This document shows positions 4,603 to 18,153 of a DNA stretch of 64,000 nucleotides, one piece after another. Position numbers and translations under genes: made by a program. Below the pieces are notes generated by a model. The model had not been told where the DNA came from. It saw nothing but the letters and a program-made list of their open reading frames with translations, and did no database searches. The stretch spans positions 1,382,684 through 1,446,683 of the forward strand of contig NZ_JH815185.1 in the NCBI RefSeq assembly GCF_000296385.1, in the 5' to 3' direction. Origin of the DNA: Lachnoanaerobaculum sp. OBRC5-5 (GTDB lineage Bacteria > Bacillota > Clostridia > Lachnospirales > Lachnospiraceae). Each line of letters begins with the position of its first letter. Position 1 is the stretch's first letter.

Positions 4603-5934
4603 TTATGTATTTTTATATAGTACAAAGCTGAATACAACACAAATCAACTCAGTTACCAAAAAAGCGCTCCATATTCCCTTCAAACCGAAAGTCTTTGATC
4701 CGATAAACATTACCGGAATCAATACCAAAAGCTGTCTGCAAAGATTTATTAATATGCTTTTCCCCACATTCTTTGTGGACTGCATATATGATGCAATCAT
4801 TGTGGTAATTCCAACAAATACATAGCTTAAACTCATTACTCTGATACCGAAAATTCCAAACTCAAGAACTTCATCAGGAGTATTGAAAGTCATCAATATG
4901 TTTTTTGTAAATACCCAGAGCAGTACTATACTTATTGATGTAAGTATTATTGCCACAATTGTTCCTATCCTTAAGCTCTCCTTCAACCTGTCTTCTCTCG
5001 CCGCTCCGTAATTATAACTCATTACAGGTATACATCCCTGTATAAGTCCGTTCAGTGTCATTATAACCATCTGCTGTATCTTAAAATACGCTCCAAAAAA
5101 GGCTATAGCAAGCTCAGAGTATTGTTTTAAGAAAAGATTGGTATTATATACCATAGCGGCTCCAAGCACATTCATAATAAAAGACGGAAATCCCACCACG
5201 AATATATCTCTTACATGTTTTAAATGTATTCTGAAATATTTTAAACCAAGCTCGACCTTTTGTTTTTGGAATATAAGCACCAAAAATGCAAGTATTGTAG
5301 ACACAGTATATCCCATAACAGTGGCAATCGCCGCACCTCTTACTCCCATCGGTTTAAATCCGAAATATCCGAAGATAAGTATCGGATCGAATATCAAATT
5401 TGTTAAAACACCTGCTATCTGGAAGCACATGGGAGCCAGCATATTTCCTGCTCCCTGTAATACTTTTTGTATACAAATATGTACTGCGCATGGAATTGCC
5501 ATAAATACACATATATCCATATATGCCATTGCCAAATCAACAGTTTCCGGATCACTTGTAAATGAAAGTATAAATCCCTTAATAATATTCATTGTTATGA
5601 AAGTTACCAGGCTACTAACTACAAATGATACTACAATACCGTTTGCCACTATAGTATTTGCTTTTTCCTCCTCTTTTTCACCCAAATACTTTGCTACAAG
5701 CACACTTACTCCTACTCCAATCCAAATAGCTATAGCAATATAAAGTGTAGTAATAGGGAAAATTATTGATACAGCGCTTAATGATTTCTCGCTGACACAT
5801 GATACAAATATACAATCCAAAAGATTGTAAGAGTATTGCATGCACATAGAAATAAGAGGCGGTATGGACATCTTTAAAATTAGAGATTTTATCGGTTCCA
5901 CCTCCATTTTATTTTTCACACGTACTTCTTCCAT
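4603..5934 (-). CDS. MATE family multidrug efflux transporter
   Basis: A 443-residue inner-membrane protein with about twelve hydrophobic segments in two halves, the layout of the MATE (NorM/DinF-like) antiporters that export organic cations with Na+ or H+. Typical features are the N-terminal PIKSLILKMSIPPLISMCMQ, SIIFPITTLYIAIAIWIGVG, and a second-half repeat with MTLNGLIQGCIPVMSYNYGA. ATG at 5934 follows a GGAGG-like site. No partner genes indicate a substrate. It is upstream of the methyltransferase gene on the same strand, but a separate promoter lies between them. Confidence 0.92.
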   Translation of the reverse strand: MEEVRVKNKMEVEPIKSLILKMSIPPLISMCMQYSYNLLDCIFVSCVSEKSLSAVSIIFPITTLYIAIAIWIGVGVSVLVAKYLGEKEEEKANTIVANGIVVSFVVSSLVTFITMNIIKGFILSFTSDPETVDLAMAYMDICVFMAIPCAVHICIQKVLQGAGNMLAPMCFQIAGVLTNLIFDPILIFGYFGFKPMGVRGAAIATVMGYTVSTILAFLVLIFQKQKVELGLKYFRIHLKHVRDIFVVGFPSFIMNVLGAAMVYNTNLFLKQYSELAIAFFGAYFKIQQMVIMTLNGLIQGCIPVMSYNYGAAREDRLKESLRIGTIVAIILTSISIVLLWVFTKNILMTFNTPDEVLEFGIFGIRVMSLSYVFVGITTMIASYMQSTKNVGKSILINLCRQLLVLIPVMFIGSKTFGLKGIWSAFLVTELICVVFSFVLYKNT

Positions 5935-5959: not shown

Positions 5960-5995
5960 TAAATAAACAAAATCAGGGGCAGCATCAGCCACCCC
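5960..5995 (-). terminator. Terminator after etfA
   Basis: Minus-strand RNA folds GGGGTGGC against GCTGCCCC (two G-U pairs) around a UGAU loop at 5976-5995 and continues into a U-rich tract. It lies 24 bp after the end of etfA and closes the pyrimidine operon. Confidence 0.7.
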
Positions 5996-6019: not shown

Positions 6020-7057
6020 CTATAATGTAAACTCTCCCGATTCTATACTTGAAACAAGAGCCGGTATGATTTCTTTTAAATCGCCTACAATGCCATAATC
6101 ACAAATATCAAATATAGGTGCATTTTTATCTGTGTTTATTGCAACAATATACTTTGACTCACTCATTCCTGCCAAATGCTGTATAGCTCCCGATATACCG
6201 CAAGCAATATATAAATCAGGTCTGACAGTCGTTCCTGTCTGTCCAACCTGGTGAGATGAGTCTATCCATCCTGCATCAACACAGGCACGTGATGAACCGA
6301 CTTCACCTCCCAAAGCTTTAGCCAGACTTTCAATCAAAGCAAAACCGTCCTTATTTTTGATACCTCTTCCTCCGGATACTATAATCTTGGCATCTGTCAG
6401 ATTTACCCTTTCTTTGTCATGCTCAACTGTTCCTAACAGTTTTGTTCTTATATCCTCTCCTTTAAGTTCAGGAACAATTTTTTCGAAAATTGCACCCGAC
6501 TTGCCTGTTTTCTTGGCTCTTGCCATTACCCCGGGTCTGACTGTAGCCATTTGAGGTCTGTTTTTAGGACATATAATAGTCGCCATAATATTTCCGCCAA
6601 AAGCCGGTCTTGTCATAAGAAGCTTCTTATCTTCTGCATCTACCTCGAGTCCGGTACAATCTGCAGTAAGTCCTGTTCCAAGTCTTGCAGCAAGTCTCGG
6701 TCCTATGTCCCTGCCGATTGAAGTTGCCCCTACTAAGAGCACTTCAGGTTTTCTTTTCTTTACTTCTTTTGATAATACTTCAACAAAACCCAATGTTGAA
6801 AAGTCTTTTAAAAGCTCATGTTCTACATAGTATACTGTATCAACATCATACTCCATAAGCTCCTTTGCGGCCTCTTCGATGTTATATCCGGGTACAATAA
6901 CTGCAAGTTGCTTTCCAAGCTCATTTGCAAGTTTTCTACCCTCACCCATAAGTTCCAATGTTATAGGTAATATCTTACCGTTTACAGATTCCGCAAGTAC
7001 CCATACATCTTTATAGTCATTAAGATTAATGTCTTGATTTACCTTTGCTCTTTCCAC
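6020..7057 (-). CDS. etfA: Electron transfer flavoprotein subunit alpha
   Basis: Alpha subunit (345 residues) of the EtfAB heterodimer that passes electrons to or from an acyl-CoA dehydrogenase through FAD. The C-terminal FAD-binding half contains VSGGRGIKNKDGF, GSSRACVDAGWI, HQVGQTGTTVRPDLYIACGI and SGAIQHLAGM, all Etf-alpha signatures. It starts with GTG at 7057; its GGAGGT site lies inside the last codons of etfB and the start shares one base with the etfB stop codon, so the two are translationally coupled. Next to the acyl-CoA dehydrogenase it probably serves reduction of acrylyl-CoA. Electron bifurcation is possible but not shown. Confidence 0.95.
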   Translation of the reverse strand: MERAKVNQDINLNDYKDVWVLAESVNGKILPITLELMGEGRKLANELGKQLAVIVPGYNIEEAAKELMEYDVDTVYYVEHELLKDFSTLGFVEVLSKEVKKRKPEVLLVGATSIGRDIGPRLAARLGTGLTADCTGLEVDAEDKKLLMTRPAFGGNIMATIICPKNRPQMATVRPGVMARAKKTGKSGAIFEKIVPELKGEDIRTKLLGTVEHDKERVNLTDAKIIVSGGRGIKNKDGFALIESLAKALGGEVGSSRACVDAGWIDSSHQVGQTGTTVRPDLYIACGISGAIQHLAGMSESKYIVAINTDKNAPIFDICDYGIVGDLKEIIPALVSSIESGEFTL

Positions 7058-7869
7058 TACTTGGCACCTCCGGACTGTATCAATTTATTTTCGTATAGTT
7101 TTGTTAAAAGAAGTTTAGCCTTTTCCATAGCTGTATTTCCTTCTATAAACTCACTATGTTTTTCTTTAACAGGTACAAACGAGCGGTGTACATTTGTAGG
7201 TGAACCCTTAATACCTATCTGTGTTTCATCTACATTTAAATCATCAAAGGTCAACACCTCTACCAACTCCTCATCGCTCTCATAAGCCTTGAAGATTCCC
7301 TTTACACTTGGATATCTCACAGTGTTAAGTTCCTTAATAGCTGTAATAAGAGCAGGAAGTTTAACTTCAAATTCATAGTCCTTTGATTCACAATATCTCT
7401 TAACTGTTACCGCACCGTCTTTTAGTTTCAGCTCTTTGGCATATGTCACCTGTGGAATATTAAGGAATTCCGCTATTTCAGGTCCAACCTGTGCAGTATC
7501 ACCGTCTATAGCCTGTCTACCGCATATTATAAGGTCATAACCTCCGATTTTTTCTATAGCAGCCGCCAATATAGTTGCTGTAGCCCAAGTATCGGATCCG
7601 CCGAATTTTCTGTCACTTATAAGATAAGCGCTGTCCGCACCCATAGCCAAAGCTTCAAGCAAAGCCTCTTTTGCCTGCATAGGTCCCATACTTAGTACAA
7701 CGACCTGCGCACCTTTTTCGTCCTTTAACCTTAATGCCGCTTCAAGGGCATTTTTATCATCAGGATTTATTATGCTCTCCACTCCGTCTCTGATAAGTGT
7801 TTTTGTCTCAGGGTTAATCTTGACCTCACTTGTATTTGGCACCTGCTTTATACATACAATGATTTTCAT
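7057..7869 (-). CDS. etfB: Electron transfer flavoprotein subunit beta
   Basis: Beta subunit (270 residues) of the electron transfer flavoprotein. The opening MKIIVCIKQVPNTSEVKI and the internal CGRQAIDGDTAQVGP are family hallmarks, the latter forming part of the nucleotide site. Length and sequence are close to Clostridial EtfB associated with butyryl-CoA or acryloyl-CoA reductase complexes. The start follows an unusual GGGGG-rich ribosome site shared with several genes of this operon. It lies 8 bp after the acyl-CoA dehydrogenase gene, so these three genes form an acyl-CoA reductase module. Confidence 0.95.
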   Translation of the reverse strand: MKIIVCIKQVPNTSEVKINPETKTLIRDGVESIINPDDKNALEAALRLKDEKGAQVVVLSMGPMQAKEALLEALAMGADSAYLISDRKFGGSDTWATATILAAAIEKIGGYDLIICGRQAIDGDTAQVGPEIAEFLNIPQVTYAKELKLKDGAVTVKRYCESKDYEFEVKLPALITAIKELNTVRYPSVKGIFKAYESDEELVEVLTFDDLNVDETQIGIKGSPTNVHRSFVPVKEKHSEFIEGNTAMEKAKLLLTKLYENKLIQSGGAK

Positions 7870-7877
7870 AATACCCC

Positions 7878-9020
7878 CTATTTCAGCACTTCTCTGGCTA
7901 TAACAACCTTGTGAATCTCTGAAGTACCTTCGTATATTTCTGTTATTTTTGCATCACGATACATTCTTTCTAATGGGTAGTCTCTCATATATCCATATCC
8001 TCCATGTATCTGTAACGCCTTATCTGTTACTTCAACGGCTACCTTTGATGCATTAAACTTTGCAATAGCAGCCTCTTTTGTATACGGCATACCGCTTACT
8101 TTAAGGCTTGCCGCTCTATATGTCATCCATCTTGCACACTCAACCTTTGTAGCCATTTCCGCCAGATACCACTGTAATCCCTGCAATGAAGAAATCGGTC
8201 TGCCAAATTGTACTCTTTCCTTTGTGTACTTTACGCTTTCATCCAATGCACCTGCCGCAATTCCAACAGCCTGTGCCGCAATTCCTATTCTTGCACCGTC
8301 AAGTGCAGTCATCGCAATCTTAAAGCCCTTTCCAAGAGGACCGATAAGATTATCTTTAGGAACTCTGCAATTATCAAATATGAGTTCTGCCGTTTCAGAT
8401 CCGTGCAGTCCCATCTTATCTTCAATCTTACCTATTGAAAATCCCGGAGTTCCACGCTCCACAAGTATACAGCTAAGCCCCTTGGTCTTTAATTCAGGTG
8501 ATGTAAGAGCAAATACCAATACATACTTTGCCAATCCTCCGCCTGTTATAAAGCATTTTGTACCGTTTAGAACATACTCTTGTGTACTCTCATCAAATAT
8601 TGCAGTTGTTCTTGCACTTCCCGCATCAGATCCGGCATTCGGCTCGGTGAGGGCAAATGCCCCCAACTCACCACCTGCACATACTACAGGTAAATACTTT
8701 TGTTTTTGTTCTTCAGTACCGAACTTTTCCAGTACGGAAGCAAATATAGTATGTATTGAAAGTGTTGCAGCGGTAGAACCGCAATGTTTTGCTATCTCTT
8801 CCACAGCAATTATCTTTTCGATATCGCTGCCTCCGCTTCCTCCATATTTTTCTTCAGTTCCTATACCGGTTAATCCCATCTTGGTCATCTCCAAAAATAA
8901 ATCTTTTGGAAATTTTCCGCTTCTGTCTATTTCTTCAGCTCTTGGTTTTACCACATTTTCACTGAAGTCGGCTACAGTTTTTTTCAGCATCAACTGTGCT
9001 TTGGAAAAATTAAAATCCAT
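7878..9020 (-). CDS. Acyl-CoA dehydrogenase, probable acryloyl-CoA reductase
   Basis: A 380-residue FAD flavoprotein of the short-chain acyl-CoA dehydrogenase family. Seen: AFALTEPNAGSDA (FAD/substrate loop), CFITGGG, the GRPISSLQGLQWYLAEM helix, and the C-terminal QIHGGYGYMRDYPLERMYRD followed by IYEGTSEI, whose Glu is the catalytic base in this family. By itself it could be a butyryl-CoA dehydrogenase. Its position between a CoA-transferase/ammonia-lyase fusion and etfBA, as in beta-alanine fermentation, argues for reduction of acrylyl-CoA to propionyl-CoA (or methylacrylyl-CoA to isobutyryl-CoA). No crotonase, thiolase or 3-hydroxybutyryl-CoA dehydrogenase gene is nearby, which speaks against butyrate synthesis. 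Confidence 0.9.
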   Translation of the reverse strand: MDFNFSKAQLMLKKTVADFSENVVKPRAEEIDRSGKFPKDLFLEMTKMGLTGIGTEEKYGGSGGSDIEKIIAVEEIAKHCGSTAATLSIHTIFASVLEKFGTEEQKQKYLPVVCAGGELGAFALTEPNAGSDAGSARTTAIFDESTQEYVLNGTKCFITGGGLAKYVLVFALTSPELKTKGLSCILVERGTPGFSIGKIEDKMGLHGSETAELIFDNCRVPKDNLIGPLGKGFKIAMTALDGARIGIAAQAVGIAAGALDESVKYTKERVQFGRPISSLQGLQWYLAEMATKVECARWMTYRAASLKVSGMPYTKEAAIAKFNASKVAVEVTDKALQIHGGYGYMRDYPLERMYRDAKITEIYEGTSEIHKVVIAREVLK

Positions 9021-9033
9021 TTCTTTTCCTCCA

Positions 9034-10602
9034 CTAGATTACGCCTTCTTCTTTTAATTGTTTCAATGTTTCATCATCAAAGCCGTAAACCTCTTTATTA
9101 TGTTGTCCAAGTAGCGGTGCCGGAGCATCTACGCTTCCCGGTGTTTCGCTAAGCTTTATAGGACAACCCTGTATATACATATCACCGATAGTAGGATGCT
9201 CAACATGTACCATCATCTCTCTTGCCTTGAAATGTGGATGTTCTATCGCTTCCTTCATATCAAGTATCTGTCCGCAAGGTATTCCTACCTCTTCAAACAT
9301 ACTCTCTACTTCTGCCTTACCTCTTTGCTTTACCCAATCCACAATTATCTCATGTAAACCGTCATTGTAATTTTTAATTCTGAGATCATTGGTTGCAAAT
9401 TTTTCATTTGTAACAAGGTCCGGTCTGCCTATTACATCACAGAATACCTTGAACAGCTTATCTGTACCTACTCCAAGCGCTATATATCCGTCCTTCGCCT
9501 CATATACATTGAATGGTGAAACTGTAGCATCAATATTTCCCTGTCTCTGAGGTATAATTCCCTTAAGGGTTGTATAGATTATTGCATTTTCAAGCAATGT
9601 GAATATAGTATCTGCCATAGCCACATCTACCTGCTGACCTTCACCGGTTACATTTCTTCTGTAAAGAGCCATAAGTACACCGACGCAAAGATAAATTCCG
9701 GTAACATTGTCGGCTACCGATACACCACATTTTACAGGAGGGGCATCTGTATAACCTGTAAGATTTATCATACCGCCCAAAGCCTGTGCAACGATATCAT
9801 AGCACGGTCTGTTTGAGAAAGGTCCATACTGTCCAAAACCGCTACCTGAAGCATAAATTATCCTTGGATTTATCTTCTTTAATGTCTCATAGTCAACTTG
9901 TAATTTCTTTGTTACTCCGACTCTGAAGTTTTCTACCACCACATCAGCCTCTCTGACAAGGTCATAGAAAATCTCTCTTCCTTTTTCAGTCTTTAAGTTA
10001 AGAGTAACTCCCTTTTTGTTTCTGTTTATAAATGCATAAAATCCGCTCTCACCGCTATTGTCATCCATTGGAGGCCAATATCTTGACTGATCACCTGTAA
10101 GAGGCTCTATCTTTATAACCTCAGCACCGTTGTCTGCTAAAAGTGCGGTACAGAAAGGACCGTTATATGCATGTGTAAGGTCAAGAACTTTCAACCCCTC
10201 AAGCGCTTTTGCCTTCTTTTTCTCTTTTTTTTCCGGAATAATATATTCAAAAATACATACGGTTGAAAGAGGAGGATCTTCCAAAACATCTATAGAGCTT
10301 TCAAACTCAGGCTCCTCAGGGATAACCGCAACCTTAAAAGAACGTACTTCTATAATTGCTCTACCGTTTTCTTCACCCAAAAGTCTCGCCTTATACTCCA
10401 TATAATCTCTGGCAAAACATGGCACAAACAATCTTACTTTTCTTACCTTTGCACATCTGCTCTGATTTCCATAAACCTTGGTCATCAATCTGTTTGCGGT
10501 ATCTTCCATCAAAGTAATAGACCTTGCACCGTTTACAACTCCTCCACCGTAGAAAACATCTCTATCGGACATTCTATATCTTAATGTAACTTCAGTACTC
10601 AT
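9034..10602 (-). CDS. Fusion: ammonia-lyase-like hotdog domain + family III CoA-transferase
   Basis: A 522-residue protein with two domains. Residues ~1-125 match the small beta-alanyl-CoA/3-aminobutyryl-CoA ammonia-lyase (Acl/Kal) family as I recall it: an N-terminal FYGGGVVNGARS segment and, near residue 75, DYMEYKARL...SFKVAV. Its middle is altered (YGN instead of DGD). After a Lys-rich linker (KKEKKKAKALEG), residues ~132-522 are a CaiB/BaiF CoA-transferase with LDLTHAYNGPFCTALLADNG, NLKTEKGREIF and the likely catalytic Asp in RPCYDIVAQALGG. The probable job is activation of beta-alanine to its CoA ester coupled to deamination. The lone hotdog gene upstream looks like the complementary lyase half. 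The domain fusion itself is seen; the activity is inferred from context. Confidence 0.85.
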   Translation of the reverse strand: MSTEVTLRYRMSDRDVFYGGGVVNGARSITLMEDTANRLMTKVYGNQSRCAKVRKVRLFVPCFARDYMEYKARLLGEENGRAIIEVRSFKVAVIPEEPEFESSIDVLEDPPLSTVCIFEYIIPEKKEKKKAKALEGLKVLDLTHAYNGPFCTALLADNGAEVIKIEPLTGDQSRYWPPMDDNSGESGFYAFINRNKKGVTLNLKTEKGREIFYDLVREADVVVENFRVGVTKKLQVDYETLKKINPRIIYASGSGFGQYGPFSNRPCYDIVAQALGGMINLTGYTDAPPVKCGVSVADNVTGIYLCVGVLMALYRRNVTGEGQQVDVAMADTIFTLLENAIIYTTLKGIIPQRQGNIDATVSPFNVYEAKDGYIALGVGTDKLFKVFCDVIGRPDLVTNEKFATNDLRIKNYNDGLHEIIVDWVKQRGKAEVESMFEEVGIPCGQILDMKEAIEHPHFKAREMMVHVEHPTIGDMYIQGCPIKLSETPGSVDAPAPLLGQHNKEVYGFDDETLKQLKEEGVI

Positions 10603-10614
10603 AATACCCCCTTA

Positions 10615-11070
10615 TTAAAGATCAAGTTCTCTCCAAGGGTCAATAACTTCACCACTTGGCTGATTTCCACGTTGTAATTCTTTCTTTACTACAAGTACTA
10701 CAGTACCTTCAGTAATCAATTTTGGAGGATCAAAATAATACATATCTCCCGGATTTGCATCTTTGATACCCATTCTGTAAGCAGGTGTTGCAACCTTATA
10801 TGTACTTATTCTACAGGTTCTTGATGTATTTCCCACCTTTAGCATCTCTGCTCTAAAATTAAGTTGATCACCTACATACGCATCTTCATACAGTTCAACA
10901 TCTGTATATCCAAGGCACAAAGATTCATCACCGTCATTTAATATCATCAACTCTGTTTCAACATCACCGATAAAATCAAACTGTCTTCCAAACGGTATTT
11001 TTCCGTCTACATTATTTGCATCGGCAGTTGTCATATTGTAATTTAATTCCGCTACTTTTCTAACACTCAT
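10615..11070 (-). CDS. Hotdog-fold protein, probable beta-alanyl-CoA ammonia-lyase subunit
   Basis: A 151-residue cytoplasmic protein. FIGDVETELMILNDGDESLCLGYTD, then AYVGDQLNFRAEMLKVGNTS and STYKVAT reproduce the pattern of beta-alanyl-CoA:ammonia-lyase of Clostridium propionicum and of lysine-fermentation Kal (from memory; shown here in pieces). Those enzymes eliminate NH3 from 3-aminoacyl-CoA to give the enoyl-CoA. The N-terminal NGAR segment of the family is missing here but is kept in the hotdog half of the next gene, 12 bp downstream, so the two may form a heteromeric active site. SD AGAGGTG precedes the ATG. Confidence 0.8.
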   Translation of the reverse strand: MSVRKVAELNYNMTTADANNVDGKIPFGRQFDFIGDVETELMILNDGDESLCLGYTDVELYEDAYVGDQLNFRAEMLKVGNTSRTCRISTYKVATPAYRMGIKDANPGDMYYFDPPKLITEGTVVLVVKKELQRGNQPSGEVIDPWRELDL

Positions 11071-11093
11071 TTCACACCTCTGTTCTACTGTAA

Positions 11094-11122
11094 TGTTGGG
11101 GCCAAAATATTTGACCCCAACA
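11094..11122 (-). promoter_or_regulatory. Strong intercistronic hairpin
   Basis: Between the amidohydrolase and hotdog genes the RNA forms a 13-bp stem (TGTTGGGGTCAAA with TTTGGCCCCAACA, one G-U pair) with a 3-nt loop. No proper U-run follows, so it is more likely a partial attenuator or mRNA processing/stability element than a full terminator. Confidence 0.6.
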
Positions 11123-11133
11123 CTTAAATCATA

Positions 11134-12390
11134 TTATTGAGCATCACACTTCAATACTGCATTCAAAAGTACACTGGCACCCTTTGTACACTGCTCAACC
11201 GGTGTAAACTCCTCTTCGCAATGTGAGTGTCCGTCCTTTGAAGGTACAAATATCATTGTAGTAGGCATCATATAGCTTACAAACTGTGCATCATGTCCTG
11301 CACCTGAGTTAATTCTCTGATTTGAATATCCGAGCTCATTTACAGCTTCTGTTACATAACCTACCAGCTTCTCATCATAGTAAACTGTGTCTCGTGACCA
11401 TGCCCTCTCATAACCTGTAGTACAGCCTACTATTTCCTTCGGCATATTCTTTATTACTTCAACAACCTGCTCTATAACCTTAGGATCCTCATGTCTTGCA
11501 TCAATCGAGAACTCTACAAAATCAGGAATAACTGTATGTACATTTGGATGACATACTATCTCACCTGTGGTATATACTAGTGCCTTATCAAGCTTATCAA
11601 GCTCATCATGAAGATACTGTAAAAGCTTTGCAGCTGCATATAATGCATCTTTTCTATATGGCATAGGAGTTGTTCCTGCATGATCTGACTGTCCGAACGC
11701 TTTGATTCTGTAGTTTATCATTCCAAGAACACAGGTAACTATTCCGATATCATTCTTTGCAGCCTCAAGGATAGGTCCCTGCTCAATATGAAGCTCGAAC
11801 ATTGCCTTATAATCCTTAGGATTTAATCTGTTTGCTACATCTCCCTTATAGCCGCTTGCTTCAAGGGCCTCTTTAAATGTCTTATTCTTATCAAGGACTG
11901 AAGTTGATGAAAGCATATCCTCATGCTTAAATTTCTTTCCAATCTCTTCAGGTAAGTAATCATTACAGATAACTCCTGATGACATCATAGCCGGTGGATA
12001 TAAAGATCCTTCCTCATTTGTCCAAATCATTGCTACGAGATTGTGCTTATGAGGTATCTTTTGCTCTGCAACAGACTCCAAGACCTCCATAGCTCCCATT
12101 ACACCTAAAATACCGTCATAGTTTCCACCGTTTCTAACCGAATCGGAATGTGAAGCCATAACAATTGCAGGTAATGTAGGATCGCTGCCCTCTAATGTTG
12201 CATACATATTTGCCATATCATCGGTCTTTATTTTTGCACCTATAGCTTCCATTCTTCTTTTGAATTCAGCTCTTGCCATAAGATTTTCTTTTGAAAGAGA
12301 ATATCTTGTGATACCGCCATGTCCTGCATCACCAAACTGACTCATGGTCTTGATTTTATCTGCCATTCTATCTTCGCTACACTTATACAT
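11134..12390 (-). CDS. Zn-dependent M20-family amidohydrolase, probable N-carbamoyl-beta-alanine amidohydrolase
   Basis: A 418-residue binuclear metal hydrolase. Metal ligands are in SHSDSVRNGGNYDGILGVMG (His, Asp) and TNEEG (Glu), with the ELHIEQGP motif and a dimerisation lid domain around residues 220-330 (GQSDHAGTTPMPYRKDA). This is the carbamoylase/allantoate amidohydrolase branch (HyuC, AllC, AmaB, beta-ureidopropionase). Position after dihydropyrimidinase and PreTA favours hydrolysis of N-carbamoyl-beta-alanine to beta-alanine, CO2 and NH3. Allantoate amidohydrolase is the main alternative, but no allantoin genes are here. The ATG at 12390 is preceded by AGGGGGT. Confidence 0.85.
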   Translation of the reverse strand: MYKCSEDRMADKIKTMSQFGDAGHGGITRYSLSKENLMARAEFKRRMEAIGAKIKTDDMANMYATLEGSDPTLPAIVMASHSDSVRNGGNYDGILGVMGAMEVLESVAEQKIPHKHNLVAMIWTNEEGSLYPPAMMSSGVICNDYLPEEIGKKFKHEDMLSSTSVLDKNKTFKEALEASGYKGDVANRLNPKDYKAMFELHIEQGPILEAAKNDIGIVTCVLGMINYRIKAFGQSDHAGTTPMPYRKDALYAAAKLLQYLHDELDKLDKALVYTTGEIVCHPNVHTVIPDFVEFSIDARHEDPKVIEQVVEVIKNMPKEIVGCTTGYERAWSRDTVYYDEKLVGYVTEAVNELGYSNQRINSGAGHDAQFVSYMMPTTMIFVPSKDGHSHCEEEFTPVEQCTKGASVLLNAVLKCDAQ

Positions 12391-12427
12391 ATTACCCCCT
12401 ATTAAAACAACATATTATTTAAAATCG

Positions 12428-12462
12428 TACTGCCACTACCTATATATAAAGCAGTGACAGTA
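12428..12462 (-). promoter_or_regulatory. Intercistronic hairpin between hydA and amidohydrolase gene
   Basis: RNA arms TACTGTCACT and AGTGGCAGTA pair over 10 bp with one G-U around a 15-nt loop; a short U-rich stretch (GATTTTAAAT) follows. It could act as a weak attenuator or stabilise the upstream message. Confidence 0.5.
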
Positions 12463-12481
12463 AAATACAATCATTAATACT

Positions 12482-13852
12482 TTAACTTCTAGGTACTCTC
12501 TTTACGAATCTACCCATTCCAGGCTTTCCTACGAAATCTCCGTTATCATAGACAAGCTGTCCTCTAAGAAATGTCTTTACAGGATATCCATGAAGCTTCT
12601 TTCCTTCCCATATGGTATGGTCATAGTCGGAATGCATATTATTTACACTTATTGTAAAATACTTATCTCTGTCATAAATAACTATATCCGCATCATTCCC
12701 TACTCTGACTCCGCCCTTCTTATCACATCCGAATATTCTTGCCGGATTTGTTGAGCAAAGAGCTACCGCCTGTGAGAAAGTGATTTTGCCTGAATTAGCT
12801 GCATCAAGCATATATGGATACATATTTTCTACACCTGCACATCCGTTTGGAATCTTTGTAAAGTCGTCAATTCCCCAATCCTTTTCATAACTCTGGAACG
12901 GACAATGATCGGTCGCAACAACATCAACCTGATTTTTCTTTATAGCTTCCCAAAGAGCCTGTCTGCTTTCCTCGCCCTTTATAGGAGGTGAACATACAAA
13001 GTTTCTTCCGTCCTCTCTCTTATATACCTCGCATGTAAACTCAAGGTACTGTGGACAGGTCTCCACATAAATAGGTACGCCCTCTTTCTTGCCTTCTATA
13101 CATGCCTCAAGGCCTTCCTTGTCAGCCATATGAACAATGTATAGCGGTGCATCCAAATGCTTACACCAATGCAAAGCTCTTCTGTCGGCTTCAGCCTCAA
13201 CAAACTCCTGACGTGCCAGATAGTGATACCAAGGACTTAAGTTTCCTTCTTTTTTAAACTTAGCTTCAAAATAATCTATCATATCGGAATTCTCTGCATG
13301 AACATTTACCAATGCTCCAAGTTCCTTCGCTCTGAGAAGCAAAGTCGCAAACATTCCGTCATCTACCATCATTCCGGCTTTTTTGTATACCATGAAGCAT
13401 TTGTAAGAAGTAATACCTTCTTTAACGGCTTCTTCCATCTCTTCAAGTATCTGACCGTCATTAAAGTCTGTAATTATACAATGAGATGCCCAGTCTACAC
13501 AGGCTTCTTTTTCAAGAATGGCTTTTTTGGAATTTACCAAATCCATAATAGTGCCACCTTTTCTCTGAACCGGATAGTCAAATATTGTAGTAACACCTCC
13601 ACAGGCTGCAGCTCTGGTACCTGAAAGGTAACTGTCTGCAGATATTGTTCCTCCGAAAGGCATAGCCAGATGAGTATGTACATCCAATGCTCCCGGAAGC
13701 ACAAGCTTTCCTGTAGCATCCACTACTTCCTTTGCATCCATGTCAAGATTCATTCCCATCTCAACAATCTTACCGTCTTTTACACCCACGTCACACGGGA
13801 ACATATCCGTTGCCGTAACTACAGTTCCACCCTTAATAATTAAATCTAACAT
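12482..13852 (-). CDS. hydA: Dihydropyrimidinase / D-hydantoinase
   Basis: Opens the ring of 5,6-dihydrouracil (or dihydrothymine) to the N-carbamoyl-beta-amino acid. The 456-residue amidohydrolase shows the zinc motif [12 protein letters not shown], the lysine to be carboxylated in [13 protein letters not shown], further metal histidines in VNVHAEN and [10 protein letters not shown], and the catalytic Asp in [10 protein letters not shown]-terminal [10 protein letters not shown] belongs to the beta-sandwich domain. It is 20 bp downstream of preA, matching reductive pyrimidine catabolism. Its hydantoinase relatives act on 5-substituted hydantoins; context decides for dihydropyrimidines. Confidence 0.92.
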
Positions 13853-13872
13853 AGATCAACCCCCCTGATATA

Positions 13873-15135
13873 TTATAGATAACTATTAGTTTCCTTTAAA
13901 TTTATGGTATGATTATCATTCTTATCTTTATAAACGAGTTTACCCGGCTGTATACAATGCATTACCGGACAAACATTTAAGCAGAGATGACATCCTACAC
14001 ATTTATCTTCATTTATTGTAGGTACTCTGGTTGCATAGTCATATTCAATAGCCTGATGTGCCGCATCAAAGCATGATACATAACATCTTCCACATCCGAC
14101 ACATTTTTCTTTATCAATCTGAACCAGAATCTTATATGATCTGTCCAAATCATCAGCTCCCACAATATTTCCTACAGCAGTGCCCACTATATCCTGAAGT
14201 TTATTGATTCCGTAATCATTCATATAATGTGACATACCGCTTATCATATCTTCAACAATTCTATATCCATATTGCATTACTGCAGTTGTTACCTGAAGAT
14301 TTGATGCACCTAACATCAAGAATTCAAGACAATCTCTCCAAGTCTCTATACCGCCCATTCCTGTTATAGGAACTTTACTTACAATAGGATCATGCATTAA
14401 ATCCGATATAAATCTAAGTGCAATAGGTTTTACCGCCGCTCCGGAATATCCTGATATTGCAGATTTTCCGTTGACAACCGGCATTCCTGTTCTTAAGTTT
14501 ATATCAAGATTTGTAATAGATTTTACTGTATTGATTGCAGCTATTCCTTTTGCACCGCCTTCTATAGCAGCTCTTGCAGGAATCTCCATATTTCCAAGAT
14601 TCGGTGTCATCTTTGCTATTATCGGCAATTTAGTACTTGAAGAAGCCACTTCACAATAATGTTTTACCAAATCAGGATTTTGTCCTACATCAGAACCCAT
14701 AGTGGATGATGTCATCTGTGGACATGAGAAATTACACTCAATCATATCCGCTCCGGCCTTTTCAGACTCTTTTGCAAGTATTGCCCACTCGTCATCAGTT
14801 GCGCCCATGATACTTGAAACTATTACTTTATTCGGAAAATCCTTCTTTAGTTGCCTAATAAACTCAAAGTTTACTTCATTCGGCTTATCTGAAGTCATCT
14901 CCATATTCTTAAATCCGGTCCAAGGTGTTCCCTCTTTTGAAGCTATATCAAATCTTGGAGAACATTCATTTGGTATAAAAACACTTATTGTTTTATAAAA
15001 AATACCACCCCAACCGGCTCTCAGTGCCTTAGCACACATCTCGTAATTACTGCCTACAGGTGAAGAAGATAGAAAAAAAGGATTCTCACAATCAACACCC
15101 AAAAAATTTATTGATAAATCTTTTTTCAAAGCCAT
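13873..15135 (-). CDS. preA: NAD-dependent dihydropyrimidine dehydrogenase, catalytic subunit PreA
   Basis: Reduces uracil or thymine to the 5,6-dihydro compound together with PreT. The 420-residue protein has an FMN-binding dihydroorotate-dehydrogenase-like barrel ([76 protein letters not shown]). Its C-terminus carries two 4Fe-4S motifs, [11 protein letters not shown] (residues ~345-355) and [13 protein letters not shown]. This domain order and the close similarity to remembered E. coli PreA make the call firm. It follows preT by 10 bp. Confidence 0.95.
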
Positions 15136-15145
15136 ATTAATCTCC

Positions 15146-16354
15146 TCACCTTATATAATCTAATATCTGGTAAGCCGCTTCTTTTCCTTCATGAACAGAC
15201 TCTACCACTGTTATACCGACACCATGTAATGCGTCACCGCCGGTGAATACTCCATCACCTGCCATAAGTCCTTTATAATCCTCTACCTGGTCCTGGCCTA
15301 TAGCAAAGATAACCATATCTGCCTTAAGTGTCATCTCATTATCGTCCTTCATTCCCTTTGCAACAAGAGCCGTTACATGACCGTTTTCCCCACAGATCTT
15401 TTCAGGCGCAAATCCTGTATAAATAGGAATTCCCATATCTCTTACAAAAGAAATCTCTTCAATATTTGCAGGTGCTTCTTCTATAGTTCTTCTATAGCAG
15501 ATACATGTTTTCTCAGCACCCAATTGTCTTGCGGTTGTAGCACAATCCATCGCTACATCACCACCACCGATTACAATTACTCTCTCCGGAAGCTCTTTTG
15601 TCTCACCGGTTCTTGCTTTAAACAAGAAATCAATAGCCGATTCAACGCCCTTAAGCTCGCTTCCTTCTACTGCAACCTTCTTTGAATCCCAAAGTCCGAC
15701 TCCGACAAATACGGCGTCATACTCACTCTTTAGCTTAGGAATATCTTCAAATTTTATTTCCTTATTAAATTCAAACTTTACTCCCAGCTCTTTTATAAGT
15801 TCTATATCAAAATCCACAACTCTGTCGGGAAGTCTTGTAGGTGTAATACCATATCTCAAAACTCCACCGGCCTTAGCCTGCTTTTCAAAAACAGTTGTAT
15901 CCACTCCTGCAAGTGCAAGCTCTCTTGCGCAAGCAAGTGATGCAGGTCCGGCACCTATCAATGCAACTTTTTTTCCGATTTTATTTCCCGCACTGACAAA
16001 TTTTGCCGACATAGCCTGCTCTTCTTCAACCAGATATCTTTGTATTTTACCAATCTGAATCGGCTTATCTATTCCACATCTGCTACACTCTTCTTCACAC
16101 ATTCTGTCATAAGGACATACCCAAGCACATGAACCACCTAACGGATTATTTTCTCTTATTGTTTCCGCAGCACCTTTTATGTTCTTAAATCTCAGTGAGC
16201 GAATGAACTTAGCCGGATCTGTCCCTGCAGGACATCCCTTAGAACAAGGTGCATCTTCACATAGAAGACACCTGGATGCTTCCTCCATGGCAAGTCTGTA
16301 ATTAAAGCCTTCCGACTTCTCCATGCCATATGCCAATTTTAAAATTTTGCTCAT
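15146..16354 (-). CDS. preT: NAD-dependent dihydropyrimidine dehydrogenase subunit PreT
   Basis: Electron-entry subunit (402 residues) of the PreTA dihydropyrimidine dehydrogenase. The N-terminus has the GltD-like iron-sulfur region [18 protein letters not shown] and [19 protein letters not shown]. After it come a FAD Rossmann motif ([18 protein letters not shown]) and a second NAD-binding motif ([21 protein letters not shown]), then ATG-type FAIGQDQ and [13 protein letters not shown]. This is the small-subunit glutamate-synthase fold that feeds electrons from NADH to PreA. It is first of the enzyme genes in the operon, 25 bp after the DUF1097 gene. Confidence 0.94.
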
Positions 16355-16379
16355 ATTAAAACCCCTTACTTTTTGATTC

Positions 16380-16889
16380 TTAATCCTCTAAAAATTTAGC
16401 TATGACCCAGTCTTTTTTATCGGTCTTCTTGAAAAACTTTGCTAAAATAAATCTTCCCAGATAATCTGATGCGAGCCCAACGATATTTCCCAGGATAAAG
16501 CAAATAATAAGCATCTTCCAATTACCACCTGATGCAAATGCACTGAAGCCGCCCATAAATGTGCAAGTTGCAAATCTGGTCAAATCACAATGAGTGATAT
16601 AAATGATAACTCCACTGAAAATTCCTGTTATCAATCCGTTAAACCATAGACTTCCATTTACATTTACACATAGCCAAATTATGGTACATCCTATAAAGAT
16701 TCCCGCCATATTACTGCATAAAGATCTGATAAAACCGTTTTTACCACAACCGGCTGCATAATAAGATGTACATCCTGCAAAGCCTACCCAAGTTGCTATC
16801 AGCGGACCTGCAAACATAGCTGATATATATGTCCATAGACCACATACAATTATGTTTGATATGGTATTTGATATAATAAATCCCGCCAT
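16380..16889 (-). CDS. DUF1097 family membrane protein (putative pyrimidine transporter)
   Basis: A 169-residue inner-membrane protein with about five hydrophobic segments, resembling the DUF1097/YcdZ family. GFAGCTSYYAAGCGKNG and a short lysine-rich C-terminus (KKTDKKDW) are visible. It is the first gene of the pyrimidine operon, directly after the MerR-type promoter and an AAAGGAGGAC ribosome site. Being first in a degradation operon that otherwise lacks a transporter suggests it moves uracil, thymine or beta-alanine, but the family has no settled function that I know. Confidence 0.75.
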   Translation of the reverse strand: MAGFIISNTISNIIVCGLWTYISAMFAGPLIATWVGFAGCTSYYAAGCGKNGFIRSLCSNMAGIFIGCTIIWLCVNVNGSLWFNGLITGIFSGVIIYITHCDLTRFATCTFMGGFSAFASGGNWKMLIICFILGNIVGLASDYLGRFILAKFFKKTDKKDWVIAKFLED

Positions 16890-16974
16890 ACTGTCCTCCT
16901 TTCCTACATATTTTATTTTAAAATGTTAAATAATTAACTATTACTTGTTTAAGAACTTATTTTATTCAATTATT
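16890..16974 (-). promoter_or_regulatory. 5' leader of the pyrimidine operon
   Basis: About 80 AT-rich bases between the predicted start site and the DUF1097 gene, ending in a strong AGGAGGAC site. No riboswitch-like fold was recognised. The remaining intergenic DNA up to 17232, upstream of the promoter, is very AT-rich and holds nothing else I can name. Confidence 0.5.
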
Positions 16975-17005
16975 ATCTTAGAATATACAGCTATTGTATA
17001 TTCAA
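16975..17005 (-). promoter_or_regulatory. MerR-type promoter/operator of the pyrimidine operon
   Basis: On the minus strand TTGAAT (17000-17005) and TAAGAT (16975-16980) are separated by 19 bp, the long spacer typical of MerR-activated promoters. The perfect dyad GAATATACA-gctat-TGTATATTC (16981-17003) fills the spacer and reaches into the -35 box. A MerR-family gene lies just upstream. Control by that regulator is inferred from architecture. Confidence 0.75.
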
Positions 17006-17232
17006 GTTAAATTTTTCTGAATTTAACATATATTTTATATGTATTTCATTTTTGTCTCCTATAAATTTATTACTCAAAGCATAAATTTACATATAATTAA
17101 TTTAACAAAAAGCAACTATAAGTCTTTTTTTGTGTATATTGCTATTTTTCGAAAGTAATCTTACACAATATCAACTTTGTATTTTTGTTAGTTATGTATA
17201 TCTCAAAATTTTGTAACCTTATTTATGTAAAA

Positions 17233-17263
17233 CAAAAAAGCCTCCCCTAAGGGGAGACTTTTT
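17233..17263. terminator. Bidirectional terminator after the MerR gene
   Basis: AGCCTCCCC-taa-GGGGAGACT (17239-17259) forms a 9-bp stem with a G-U pair; T runs lie on both sides. In the minus direction it would end merR transcripts before the pyrimidine promoter. Confidence 0.85.
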
Positions 17264-17295: not shown

Positions 17296-18153
17296 TTAGT
17301 TTCTCGGTTTTACCGGAACTATTATTTTTACTATATGTTGATCTGTATTAGGCAGATCCACCGGTGAAAGCATAAATCTTTCTGTTACAGGTCCATCTAC
17401 CATCAGATCGTTTTCTTCTATCCATCTTTTCAAAGAAATATATGTATGCACTATATCGCTGTAATCGCCGACATATATAGCATTGGCGGCAAGAAAGTTT
17501 CCGAATTTCTTTACTTCAGCATCCTTGATATCATTTTCAACTACAATGGAAAACTCCACCTCACAATCTCTGTGAATAAATTGTCCAAACATCTCAGTAT
17601 GATAGGATACAAGTATATCACCCTGAATATTCAGATTCCTTTCTTTTGCAGACTCTATAATATCTATCCATTTTTCCAGACTGACTTTTTCGTTCTTATA
17701 AGACTGCATCATGGTAGTTTTACCAAATACATATACTTCTCTTTGCTTTTCAAGCTTAAAAGAACTTTCTACATTGTAATTATTACTGTCTTCAAGTATT
17801 CTTTGCGCAGATTTAATTTTATTATTTAAAGTAGCAGCTTCTTCATACTTTTTATTGAGCTCAATAATTTCATCTTTTATGGAGTTTTGTTTTTTTGTCA
17901 CTATAAGTTCTATCTTTTGAATATCATCTTCTTTTAATATATTTCTAACCTCTTCCAGCGAAAAGCCCAAATATCTGAGCCTCTTTATGATAAAAAGCCT
18001 TACCATTTGATCATGACTATAATATCTGTAATTATTGTTTTCCTGTCTGATACTTGGAACCATCACATTTATCTTATCATAATATCTTAAAGTCTTTATC
18101 GGTATATTACATATTTCAGATACTCTTCCAATAGAATAATATTTATCTTTCAA
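17296..18153 (-). CDS. MerR family regulator with GyrI-like effector domain
   Basis: A 285-residue transcription factor. Residues 1-75 are a MerR winged helix (YSIGRVSEICNIPIKTLRYYD, then YRYYSHDQMVRLFIIKRLRYLGFSLEEV); a coiled coil follows (~78-115). The C-terminal ~165 residues resemble the effector-binding domain of BmrR/BltR-like proteins, which senses small or aromatic ligands. It lies immediately upstream of the uracil operon, whose promoter has the 19-bp spacer and dyad expected for MerR activation. It follows ldh by 33 bp and may be cotranscribed with it. The ligand could be a pyrimidine or a breakdown product, which is inference. Confidence 0.9.
   Translation of the reverse strand: MKDKYYSIGRVSEICNIPIKTLRYYDKINVMVPSIRQENNNYRYYSHDQMVRLFIIKRLRYLGFSLEEVRNILKEDDIQKIELIVTKKQNSIKDEIIELNKKYEEAATLNNKIKSAQRILEDSNNYNVESSFKLEKQREVYVFGKTTMMQSYKNEKVSLEKWIDIIESAKERNLNIQGDILVSYHTEMFGQFIHRDCEVEFSIVVENDIKDAEVKKFGNFLAANAIYVGDYSDIVHTYISLKRWIEENDLMVDGPVTERFMLSPVDLPNTDQHIVKIIVPVKPRN

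Follow-up and report, generated by a model that had tools for sequence, protein, structure and literature searches.

A run of ten genes on the minus strand of Lachnoanaerobaculum sp. OBRC5-5 (genome, 2.93 Mb), a bacterium of the human mouth, appears to encode a complete anaerobic route from uracil, and possibly thymine, to propionate, which would act mainly as an electron sink and a nitrogen source. The run extends from 16889 to 6020 within the 64,000-nucleotide stretch analyzed here (the window; contig NZ_JH815185.1), and its order in the direction of transcription is DUF1097-preT-preA-hydA-M20 amidohydrolase-hotdog-(hotdog+CoA-transferase)-acyl-CoA dehydrogenase-etfB-etfA, as a preliminary description of this DNA had correctly listed. 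We put the probability of this reading at roughly 0.84. It is well supported by sequence because PreA, the dihydropyrimidinase, the carbamoylase, and the AcrC-type dehydrogenase all pass curated cut-offs. The gene identities, their order, the motifs, and the recurrence and co-occurrence of the genes are observed, and we infer every substrate, the two-subunit nature of the ammonia lyase, the coenzyme A (CoA) cycle, the sink role, and control by a MerR-type protein. The family evidence is consistent with every step assigned in the preliminary description, and other organisms have these functions clustered in different arrangements, a pattern that speaks for pathway logic rather than for an order arisen by chance.

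In the proposed route, PreTA would reduce uracil to dihydrouracil, HydA would open the ring of dihydrouracil, and the M20 enzyme would release beta-alanine, CO2, and NH3. The class III CoA-transferase domain would then move CoA from propionyl-CoA onto beta-alanine, freeing propionate; a lyase made of the separate hotdog protein (alpha) and the hotdog fused to the CoA-transferase (beta) would split beta-alanyl-CoA into acrylyl-CoA and NH3; and the AcrC-type dehydrogenase would, with EtfBA, reduce acrylyl-CoA to propionyl-CoA, which would re-enter the CoA exchange. The net reaction would be uracil + 2 H2O + 4[H] -> propionate + CO2 + 2 NH3. While the family evidence bears out a route to propionyl-CoA, the endpoint that had been proposed earlier, the final product is likely to be propionate, because a CoA-transferase of class III would pass the CoA of propionyl-CoA to the following beta-alanine in exchange. 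By this transfer the CoA cycle would sustain itself once primed, and in this genus, where beta and the CoA-transferase are fused, a single complex would carry out both activation and elimination. The two reductions would spend two NADH or equivalents per uracil, and no step would yield ATP directly; since both redox steps would consume reductant, the route looks like an electron sink rather than, by itself, an energy-yielding fermentation. By analogy, thymine could plausibly be converted to isobutyrate in the same way.

Predicted steps from uracil to beta-alanine

The operon genes, and the flanking hairpins, leader, and merR gene described below, all lie on the minus strand. The product of preA (13873 to 15135), the subunit with FMN and two 4Fe-4S clusters predicted to reduce uracil to dihydrouracil, scores 585.6 bits on the curated model NF006183 (cut-off, 335). 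In an alignment to pig dihydropyrimidine dehydrogenase (DPD), it keeps N609, N668, C671, N736, and T737 (pig numbering), of which we take C671 to be the active-site cysteine and the other four to contact uracil. Ten bases upstream of preA lies preT (15146 to 16354), encoding the FAD/NAD(P)H/Fe-S subunit of the dihydropyrimidine dehydrogenase (PF14691, PF07992) with nine N-terminal cysteines; none of the best 25 of its 57 matching NCBIfam models reached its cut-off. The hydA product (12482 to 13852), which would convert dihydrouracil to N-carbamoyl-beta-alanine, scores 462.2 bits on the dihydropyrimidinase model TIGR02033 (cut-off, 393.25), matches PDB entry 3sfw at 3.7e-108, and carries the motifs HxH, YK, VHAEN, VHM, and TDH, which presumably include the metal ligands of dihydropyrimidinase.

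The M20 carbamoylase (11134 to 12390) is a probable beta-ureidopropionase, which would convert N-carbamoyl-beta-alanine to beta-alanine, CO2, and NH3. It exceeds the cut-offs of the hydantoinase/carbamoylase model TIGR01879 (359.5 bits; cut-off, 204) and of NF006771, a model named allantoate amidohydrolase (481.9 bits; cut-off, 399), and its third-best PDB match is an N-carbamoyl-beta-alanine amidohydrolase (8c46, 9.1e-65). A search confined to the ten operon proteins found neither the beta-alanine aminotransferase nor the malonic semialdehyde reductase (PydD/PydE) among them. The first gene of the run (16380 to 16889; PF06496, 79.8 bits) encodes a membrane protein of the YcdZ type of DUF1097 with six long predicted helices. 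Its structure model (predicted local distance difference test [pLDDT], 73) found no match with an E value up to 0.001 in a fold search, and a role in uptake is possible.

CoA-transferase and acryloyl-CoA reductase

The fusion gene (9034 to 10602) encodes hotdog beta in residues 1 to 128, with a match to PDB entry 4mtu, and a class III CoA-transferase in residues 129 to 522 (PF02515, 441 bits). Asp269 of the CoA-transferase, which we take to be the catalytic aspartate from its role in FRC and CaiB, is kept in 35 of 35 relatives. The acyl-CoA dehydrogenase (7878 to 9020) scores 702.3 bits on the acryloyl-CoA reductase (AcrC) model NF042972 (cut-off, 640) and has a YEGT motif at 363. It is followed by etfB (7057 to 7869; PF01012) and etfA (6020 to 7057; GTG start; PF01012 and PF00766), the electron-transferring flavoprotein subunits that would serve this reductase.

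We considered whether a frameshift or sequencing artefact lay behind the beta/CoA-transferase fusion and rejected this, since the fusion is a single open frame in four of six genus genomes, our own included, and since a beta-led frame of 539 amino acids also occurs in another locus (L067). The latter frame starts with hotdog beta (match at 8340), is similar in length to the window's fusion, and is accompanied by a separate beta. A protein with an RnfC_N domain is encoded in the OBRC5-5 genome.

Recurrence of the gene set in other anaerobes

A pattern-based scan with one genome per species yielded at least 38 loci encoding hotdog alpha, the scan not being exhaustive. Homologues of the window's lower-half proteins were found in most of these 38 loci (alpha in 38, beta in 36, the dehydrogenase and the CoA-transferase in 35 each, EtfA and EtfB in 32 each); PreA, PreT, the dihydropyrimidinase, and the M20 enzyme were each represented in 13 and DUF1097 of the YcdZ type in 9. 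PreA, the dihydropyrimidinase, the M20 enzyme, both hotdogs, the CoA-transferase, the acyl-CoA dehydrogenase, EtfB, and EtfA occurred together within a single fetched stretch in eight loci, seven of which also had PreT. Three of the eight (L060, L061, and L062) are from the genus, and Lachnoanaerobaculum gingivalis, Lachnoanaerobaculum sp. ICM7, and Lachnospiraceae oral taxon 107 share the same operon order at 90 to 100% protein identity. The other five have different orders and belong to Eubacterium barkeri (L066, whose fetched stretch lacks PreT), C. thermopalmarium (L072), and Anaerotignum/Tyzzerella (L079, L080, and L081). For instance, the order is M20-hydA-DUF1097-preT-preA-dehydrogenase-etfB-etfA-alpha-beta-CoA-transferase in L072 and dehydrogenase-etfB-etfA-CoA-transferase-alpha-beta-hydA-M20-preT-preA in Anaerotignum neopropionicum (L080), while a Pseudoramibacter locus (L070) reads DUF1097-preT-preA-hydA-M20-CoA-transferase-alpha-beta, with no reductase within the fetched stretch. 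Thus, a search for the same ten-gene order, which the preliminary description had proposed, recovers the gene set in other arrangements but the exact order only in Lachnoanaerobaculum among the loci read. The same set in differing orders fits selection for a shared pathway, and we therefore rejected a chance neighborhood.

At least one of PreA, the dihydropyrimidinase, and the M20 enzyme lies within about 10 kb in 16 of the 38 loci, which is a lower bound given several short contigs; the corresponding count near hotdogs resembling 3-aminobutyryl-CoA lyase is 0 of 5 loci, two of them from the genus. At the genome level, 29 of the 38 alpha genomes had a PreA above the cut-off, compared with 48 of 398 genomes of a phylum sample (our own included) and 2 of 14 control genomes. 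The association gave Fisher values of 3e-17 with our own genome removed and 3e-15 with the three genus genomes removed as well, both uncorrected for relatedness, and related species are not independent. In a phylum sample of the same size (398), only our own genome gave a match as strong as a true alpha (300 bits), the best in the next genome being 81.2 bits.

This enrichment of PreA also bears on whether the hydantoinase/carbamoylase pair might act mainly on hydantoins or other cyclic ureides, with PreTA a side activity and propionate from uracil minor. D-hydantoinases do belong to the HydA and M20 families, as do carbamoylases acting on other amino acids, and one locus (L082) has both genes beside the module in a genome without PreA over the cut-off. 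Nevertheless, we regard this as very improbable given the strong enrichment of PreA in hotdog-alpha genomes and the precedent of Anaerostipes hadrus, which has a ycdZ(DUF1097)-preT-preA-hydA set and is reported to convert 5-fluorouracil to fluoro-ureidopropionate (PMC11036815).

Several observations weigh against a uracil-to-propionate operon. The M20 family leaves the substrate unfixed, and the strongest model is the one named for allantoate amidohydrolase. EtfA (403 bits on the AcrA model NF042970; cut-off, 600) and EtfB (289.7 bits on the AcrB model NF042971; cut-off, 475) both fall short. The recurrence in L072 is loose, its dihydropyrimidinase and M20 enzyme being 43% and 57% identical to the window's. 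Finally, 22 of the 38 loci have no PreA, dihydropyrimidinase, or M20 enzyme in the fetched stretch, several being short contigs, and 9 of the 38 genomes have no PreA over the cut-off. Because of these last two counts, we read the lower half as a module able to stand without the uracil genes.

A BrnQ-type amino acid carrier, a candidate beta-alanine importer, lies beside the lyase module in seven of the nine alpha genomes without PreA (L067, L068, L071, L074, L077, L082, and L084) but in only 4 of the 29 with PreA (L072, L073, L086, and L096), a difference uncorrected for relatedness. The comparison covers these 11 loci; a 29% match in L066, although among the 12 homologue matches, was left out. 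We read this as a beta-alanine module that would receive its substrate either from pyrimidines or through import. The carrier and the 22 loci lacking the upper genes could also favor two functional units under one promoter, in which the uracil half would supply nitrogen and beta-alanine and the other half would process another beta-amino acyl-CoA, such as 3-aminoisobutyryl-CoA from thymine or the CoA ester of an imported beta-amino acid, beta-alanine not being its main CoA substrate. This arrangement seems unlikely to us: the closest solved or curated homologues are a beta-alanyl-CoA lyase and an acryloyl-CoA reductase, the upper half yields the very compound on which the lower half acts, and imported beta-alanine would explain BrnQ just as well.

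A small nitroreductase-family protein follows beta in two loci (L034, 8587 to 9123; L068, 10902 to 11438), with matches in 8 of the 38 loci, one at only 27%. Outside the Bacillota, a contig named Desulfovibrio from a metagenome-assembled genome (L095) carries two alpha-beta pairs and a CoA-transferase, possibly through transfer or a binning error.

A probable two-subunit ammonia lyase

Hotdog alpha (10615 to 11070), a proposed subunit of the beta-alanyl-CoA ammonia lyase, matches beta-alanyl-CoA:ammonia lyase 2 (Acl2) of Clostridium propionicum (PDB 4mtu) at 1.2e-16, and hotdog beta (residues 7 to 96 of the fusion) matches it weakly, at 1.4e-5. Alpha has no Pfam family match, and no Pfam or NCBIfam model names either protein at its cut-off. 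On the curated 3-aminobutyryl-CoA lyase model NF052388 (cut-off, 160), alpha reaches 62.5 bits and C. propionicum Acl2 itself 122.3. Alpha and beta are 20% identical, and in a tree of 97 rows, alpha, beta, Acl, and the 3-aminobutyryl-CoA-lyase-like proteins form four separate groups, with long branches and bootstrap support that is not settled.

The preliminary description had listed the hotdogs as separate genes; they probably make up one alpha-beta enzyme rather than two. This appears probable because alpha and beta co-occur and fall into distinct clades, and because 10 of the 38 loci have them as a natural fusion. Beta is present in 36 of the loci, the other two (L096 and L097) having an alpha cut by the contig end, and the fusions measure 280 to 283 residues. 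AlphaFold, given an alignment of eight of the ten fusions and seven single subunits, modeled the fusion from L069 as two hotdog-like domains (pLDDT, 75; predicted template modeling score, 0.76), with pLDDT below 50 at residues 38 to 45, 131 to 158, and 175 to 180. The best PDB matches of this model, over its whole length and with template modeling (TM) scores of about 0.65, are acyl-CoA thioesterases 12 and 7, which are tandem double hotdogs; 4mtu ranks 19th, with one domain matched (TMt, 0.74 over 133 columns).

We then asked how the two hotdogs share the 42 columns that are invariant among five Acl and four 3-aminobutyryl-CoA-lyase-like sequences, using 44 of 45 alpha rows and excluding rows of 60 residues or fewer. 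Neither alpha nor beta holds all 42 residues in a single polypeptide: 13 columns are kept by alpha alone, 6 by beta alone, 8 by both, and 15 by neither or in a mixed manner. Alpha keeps Glu39 and a DGD-SL-L-Y block, and beta keeps a Y-GG-VNGAR block and has an arginine at the position of Acl Glu39. Such a split would look like a shared active site, although these counts are not proof.

Three points speak against the proposed alpha-beta lyase. Both hotdogs lie below the NF052388 cut-off, though the true Acl2 does as well; the L069 model is unsure at residues 38 to 45, beside the Glu39 region; and the loss of residues is not complementary beyond chance (8 shared columns, 7 expected). The last of these, together with the low identity and separate groups of alpha and beta and the preference of the fusion model for thioesterases, would also be expected if each hotdog were an independent homomer, one of them a lyase, for instance, and the other a thioesterase. 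We nevertheless consider independent enzymes rather unlikely, as beta accompanies alpha in all 36 loci with an uncut alpha, ten loci encode natural fusions modeled as two hotdog domains, and each protein lacks some of the residues invariant in the nine reference sequences. BvaB1/BvaB2 from beta-valine breakdown were considered as a two-subunit precedent and set aside, being, in the portion of the report consulted, enoyl-CoA hydratase-like and each active alone (PMC4619459).

Taken further, pyrimidine bases may in some anaerobes be disposable electron acceptors used through a dedicated, propionate-ending CoA cycle, in which an undescribed heteromeric beta-amino-acyl-CoA ammonia lyase has a single active site shared by two diverged hotdogs, with fusions arising either between alpha and beta or between beta and the CoA-transferase; we favor this wider proposal by a modest degree. 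If a shared-site heteromeric lyase is correct, C. propionicum would run two different beta-alanyl-CoA lyases, one of them for uracil.

The OBRC5-5 genome also encodes, outside the window, a 3-aminobutyryl-CoA-lyase-like hotdog (L059; G000:C1:1352895-1353260), possibly belonging to lysine fermentation.

A joined cluster in a probable Clostridium propionicum genome

One of the genomes (G113) very probably comes from C. propionicum or from a member of its species, because it encodes a hotdog identical to the C. propionicum Acl2 of the PDB over all 144 residues. Its classical Acl adjoins a CaiB-type CoA-transferase (L039). A separate cluster (L034/L132) reads, in coordinate order, preA-preT-M20-permease-hydA-(merR, on the other strand)-nitroreductase-beta-alpha-CoA-transferase-etfA-etfB-acyl-CoA dehydrogenase, and its AcrC (696.9 bits), AcrA (708.2 bits), and AcrB (526.8 bits) are all above cut-offs. 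The preliminary description had regarded the parts as known separately, among them those of C. propionicum, and the joined operon as not established; yet C. propionicum very probably carries such a joined cluster itself. We found one copy of the cluster reductase in G113, with paralogues at 55% and 45%, which differs from the three identical acrABC copies described in the C. propionicum genome paper (PMC4832176).

As an observation in its own right, this classical beta-alanine fermenter would have a second lyase, of the alpha-beta type and within a uracil cluster (L034/L132), besides the known Acl. In two genomes of the same family as G113 (G056 and G067; L035 and L036), two tandem Acl-type lyases occur with a CoA-transferase 67 to 69% like the window's, near an M20 carbamoylase, a diverged amidohydrolase (34 to 35%), and DUF1097, suggesting another link from a ureide to beta-alanine.

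Relation to known pathways

The operon is probably a variant that joins two known pathways, and it includes an undescribed and probably two-subunit lyase. In A. hadrus, ycdZ (DUF1097), preT, preA, and hydA occur together, and conversion of 5-fluorouracil comes to a dead end at fluoro-ureidopropionate, no ureidopropionase having been found, according to the part of the report consulted (PMC11036815). This set matches the first four genes of the window in content and order; unlike A. hadrus, the window also encodes a carbamoylase and a predicted full route to propionate, and because the carbamoylase directly follows hydA, breakdown should continue to beta-alanine. Another paper covers Pyd variants extended by an aminotransferase and a reductase, as well as a PydA that depends on ferredoxin, and cites extended pathways with beta-alanine aminotransferase and malonic semialdehyde reductase (PydD/PydE) and from uracil to acetyl-CoA (PMC7332683, citing Yin 2019 and Zhu 2020). 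Both these pathways and the window continue past beta-alanine after PydA/B/C, the former through malonic semialdehyde and the latter through predicted CoA activation, ammonia elimination, and reduction; the paper contains no word starting with acryl or propion. Clostridium uracilicum was long ago reported to convert uracil to beta-alanine, as mentioned in an excerpt of PMC7142369. No publication joining uracil breakdown to acryloyl-CoA or propionate was among the matches listed in a search of open-licence literature by titles, abstract beginnings, and term counts, most subscription literature being outside it.

For the lower half, the closest parallel is the beta-alanine fermentation of C. propionicum, with its Acl lyase (PDB 4mtu/4mzq) and acryloyl-CoA reductase AcrABC. 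The chemistry from beta-alanine to propionyl-CoA would be the same, and a CaiB-type CoA-transferase lies beside the lyase there too (L039), but Acl is a single-gene lyase at a separate locus, whereas the window's proposed lyase is an alpha-beta pair that has diverged and is linked to uracil genes. The 3-aminobutyryl-CoA ammonia lyase (Kal) of lysine fermentation is a homologous hotdog, and its models (NF052388, NF052389) include one for a fusion to the cleavage enzyme, a precedent for joining such a lyase to a further pathway enzyme; alpha and beta differ from Kal in falling well below the curated cut-off and in forming their own tree groups. In carnitine/crotonobetaine reduction (CaiA, CaiB, FixAB), a class III CoA-transferase recycles CoA with an acyl-CoA dehydrogenase and Etf, forming an electron sink. 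These three components are shared with the sink proposed here, but the carnitine system has another substrate and neither an ammonia lyase nor pyrimidine genes.

If correct, the proposed route would explain the fate of uracil in a set of PreTA-carrying anaerobes and connect propionate with the breakdown of nucleic acids in the mouth and gut. A pathway that is generally seen as supplying nitrogen would also gain a testable function in disposing of electrons. It predicts that some bacteria take compounds of the 5-fluorouracil type past ureidopropionate, where A. hadrus stops. The putative two-subunit lyase is a concrete candidate for assay, and neither Pfam nor NCBIfam has a model that names it above the cut-off.

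Limits of the operon and neighboring genes

From DUF1097 to etfA, the intergenic gaps in transcription order are 25, 10, 20, 91, 63, 12, 13, 8, and -1 bases. Upstream lies an AT-rich leader (16890 to 17234), the probable promoter region, in which the end originally given for the operon (17005) falls; the gene content stands, but the first gene starts at 16889. The ten genes likely form one transcription unit because a T-tailed, terminator-like hairpin of 13 pairs (17235 to 17263) lies 3' of merR as the upper limit and another of 8 pairs (5976 to 5995) lies 3' of etfA as the lower limit. These hairpins are telling in placement alone, since 9 sites of this kind were counted where shuffled sequences gave 6.7 on average, and promoter-like matches in the scanned region showed no excess (41 found, 41.4 expected from shuffles).

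The merR gene (17296 to 18153) encodes a MerR-type protein with a GyrI-like ligand domain (Pfam MerR_1, GyrI-like) and is the probable regulator of the operon. A homologue occurs in 30 of the 38 alpha loci, whether or not pyrimidine genes are present there, suggesting that it may sense something common to the lower module. At the other end, extension of the operon into a MATE gene (4603 to 5934) was rejected on account of the hairpin after etfA; MATE homologues occur in 4 of the 38 loci, namely, three of the genus and L064, where the match is 22%.

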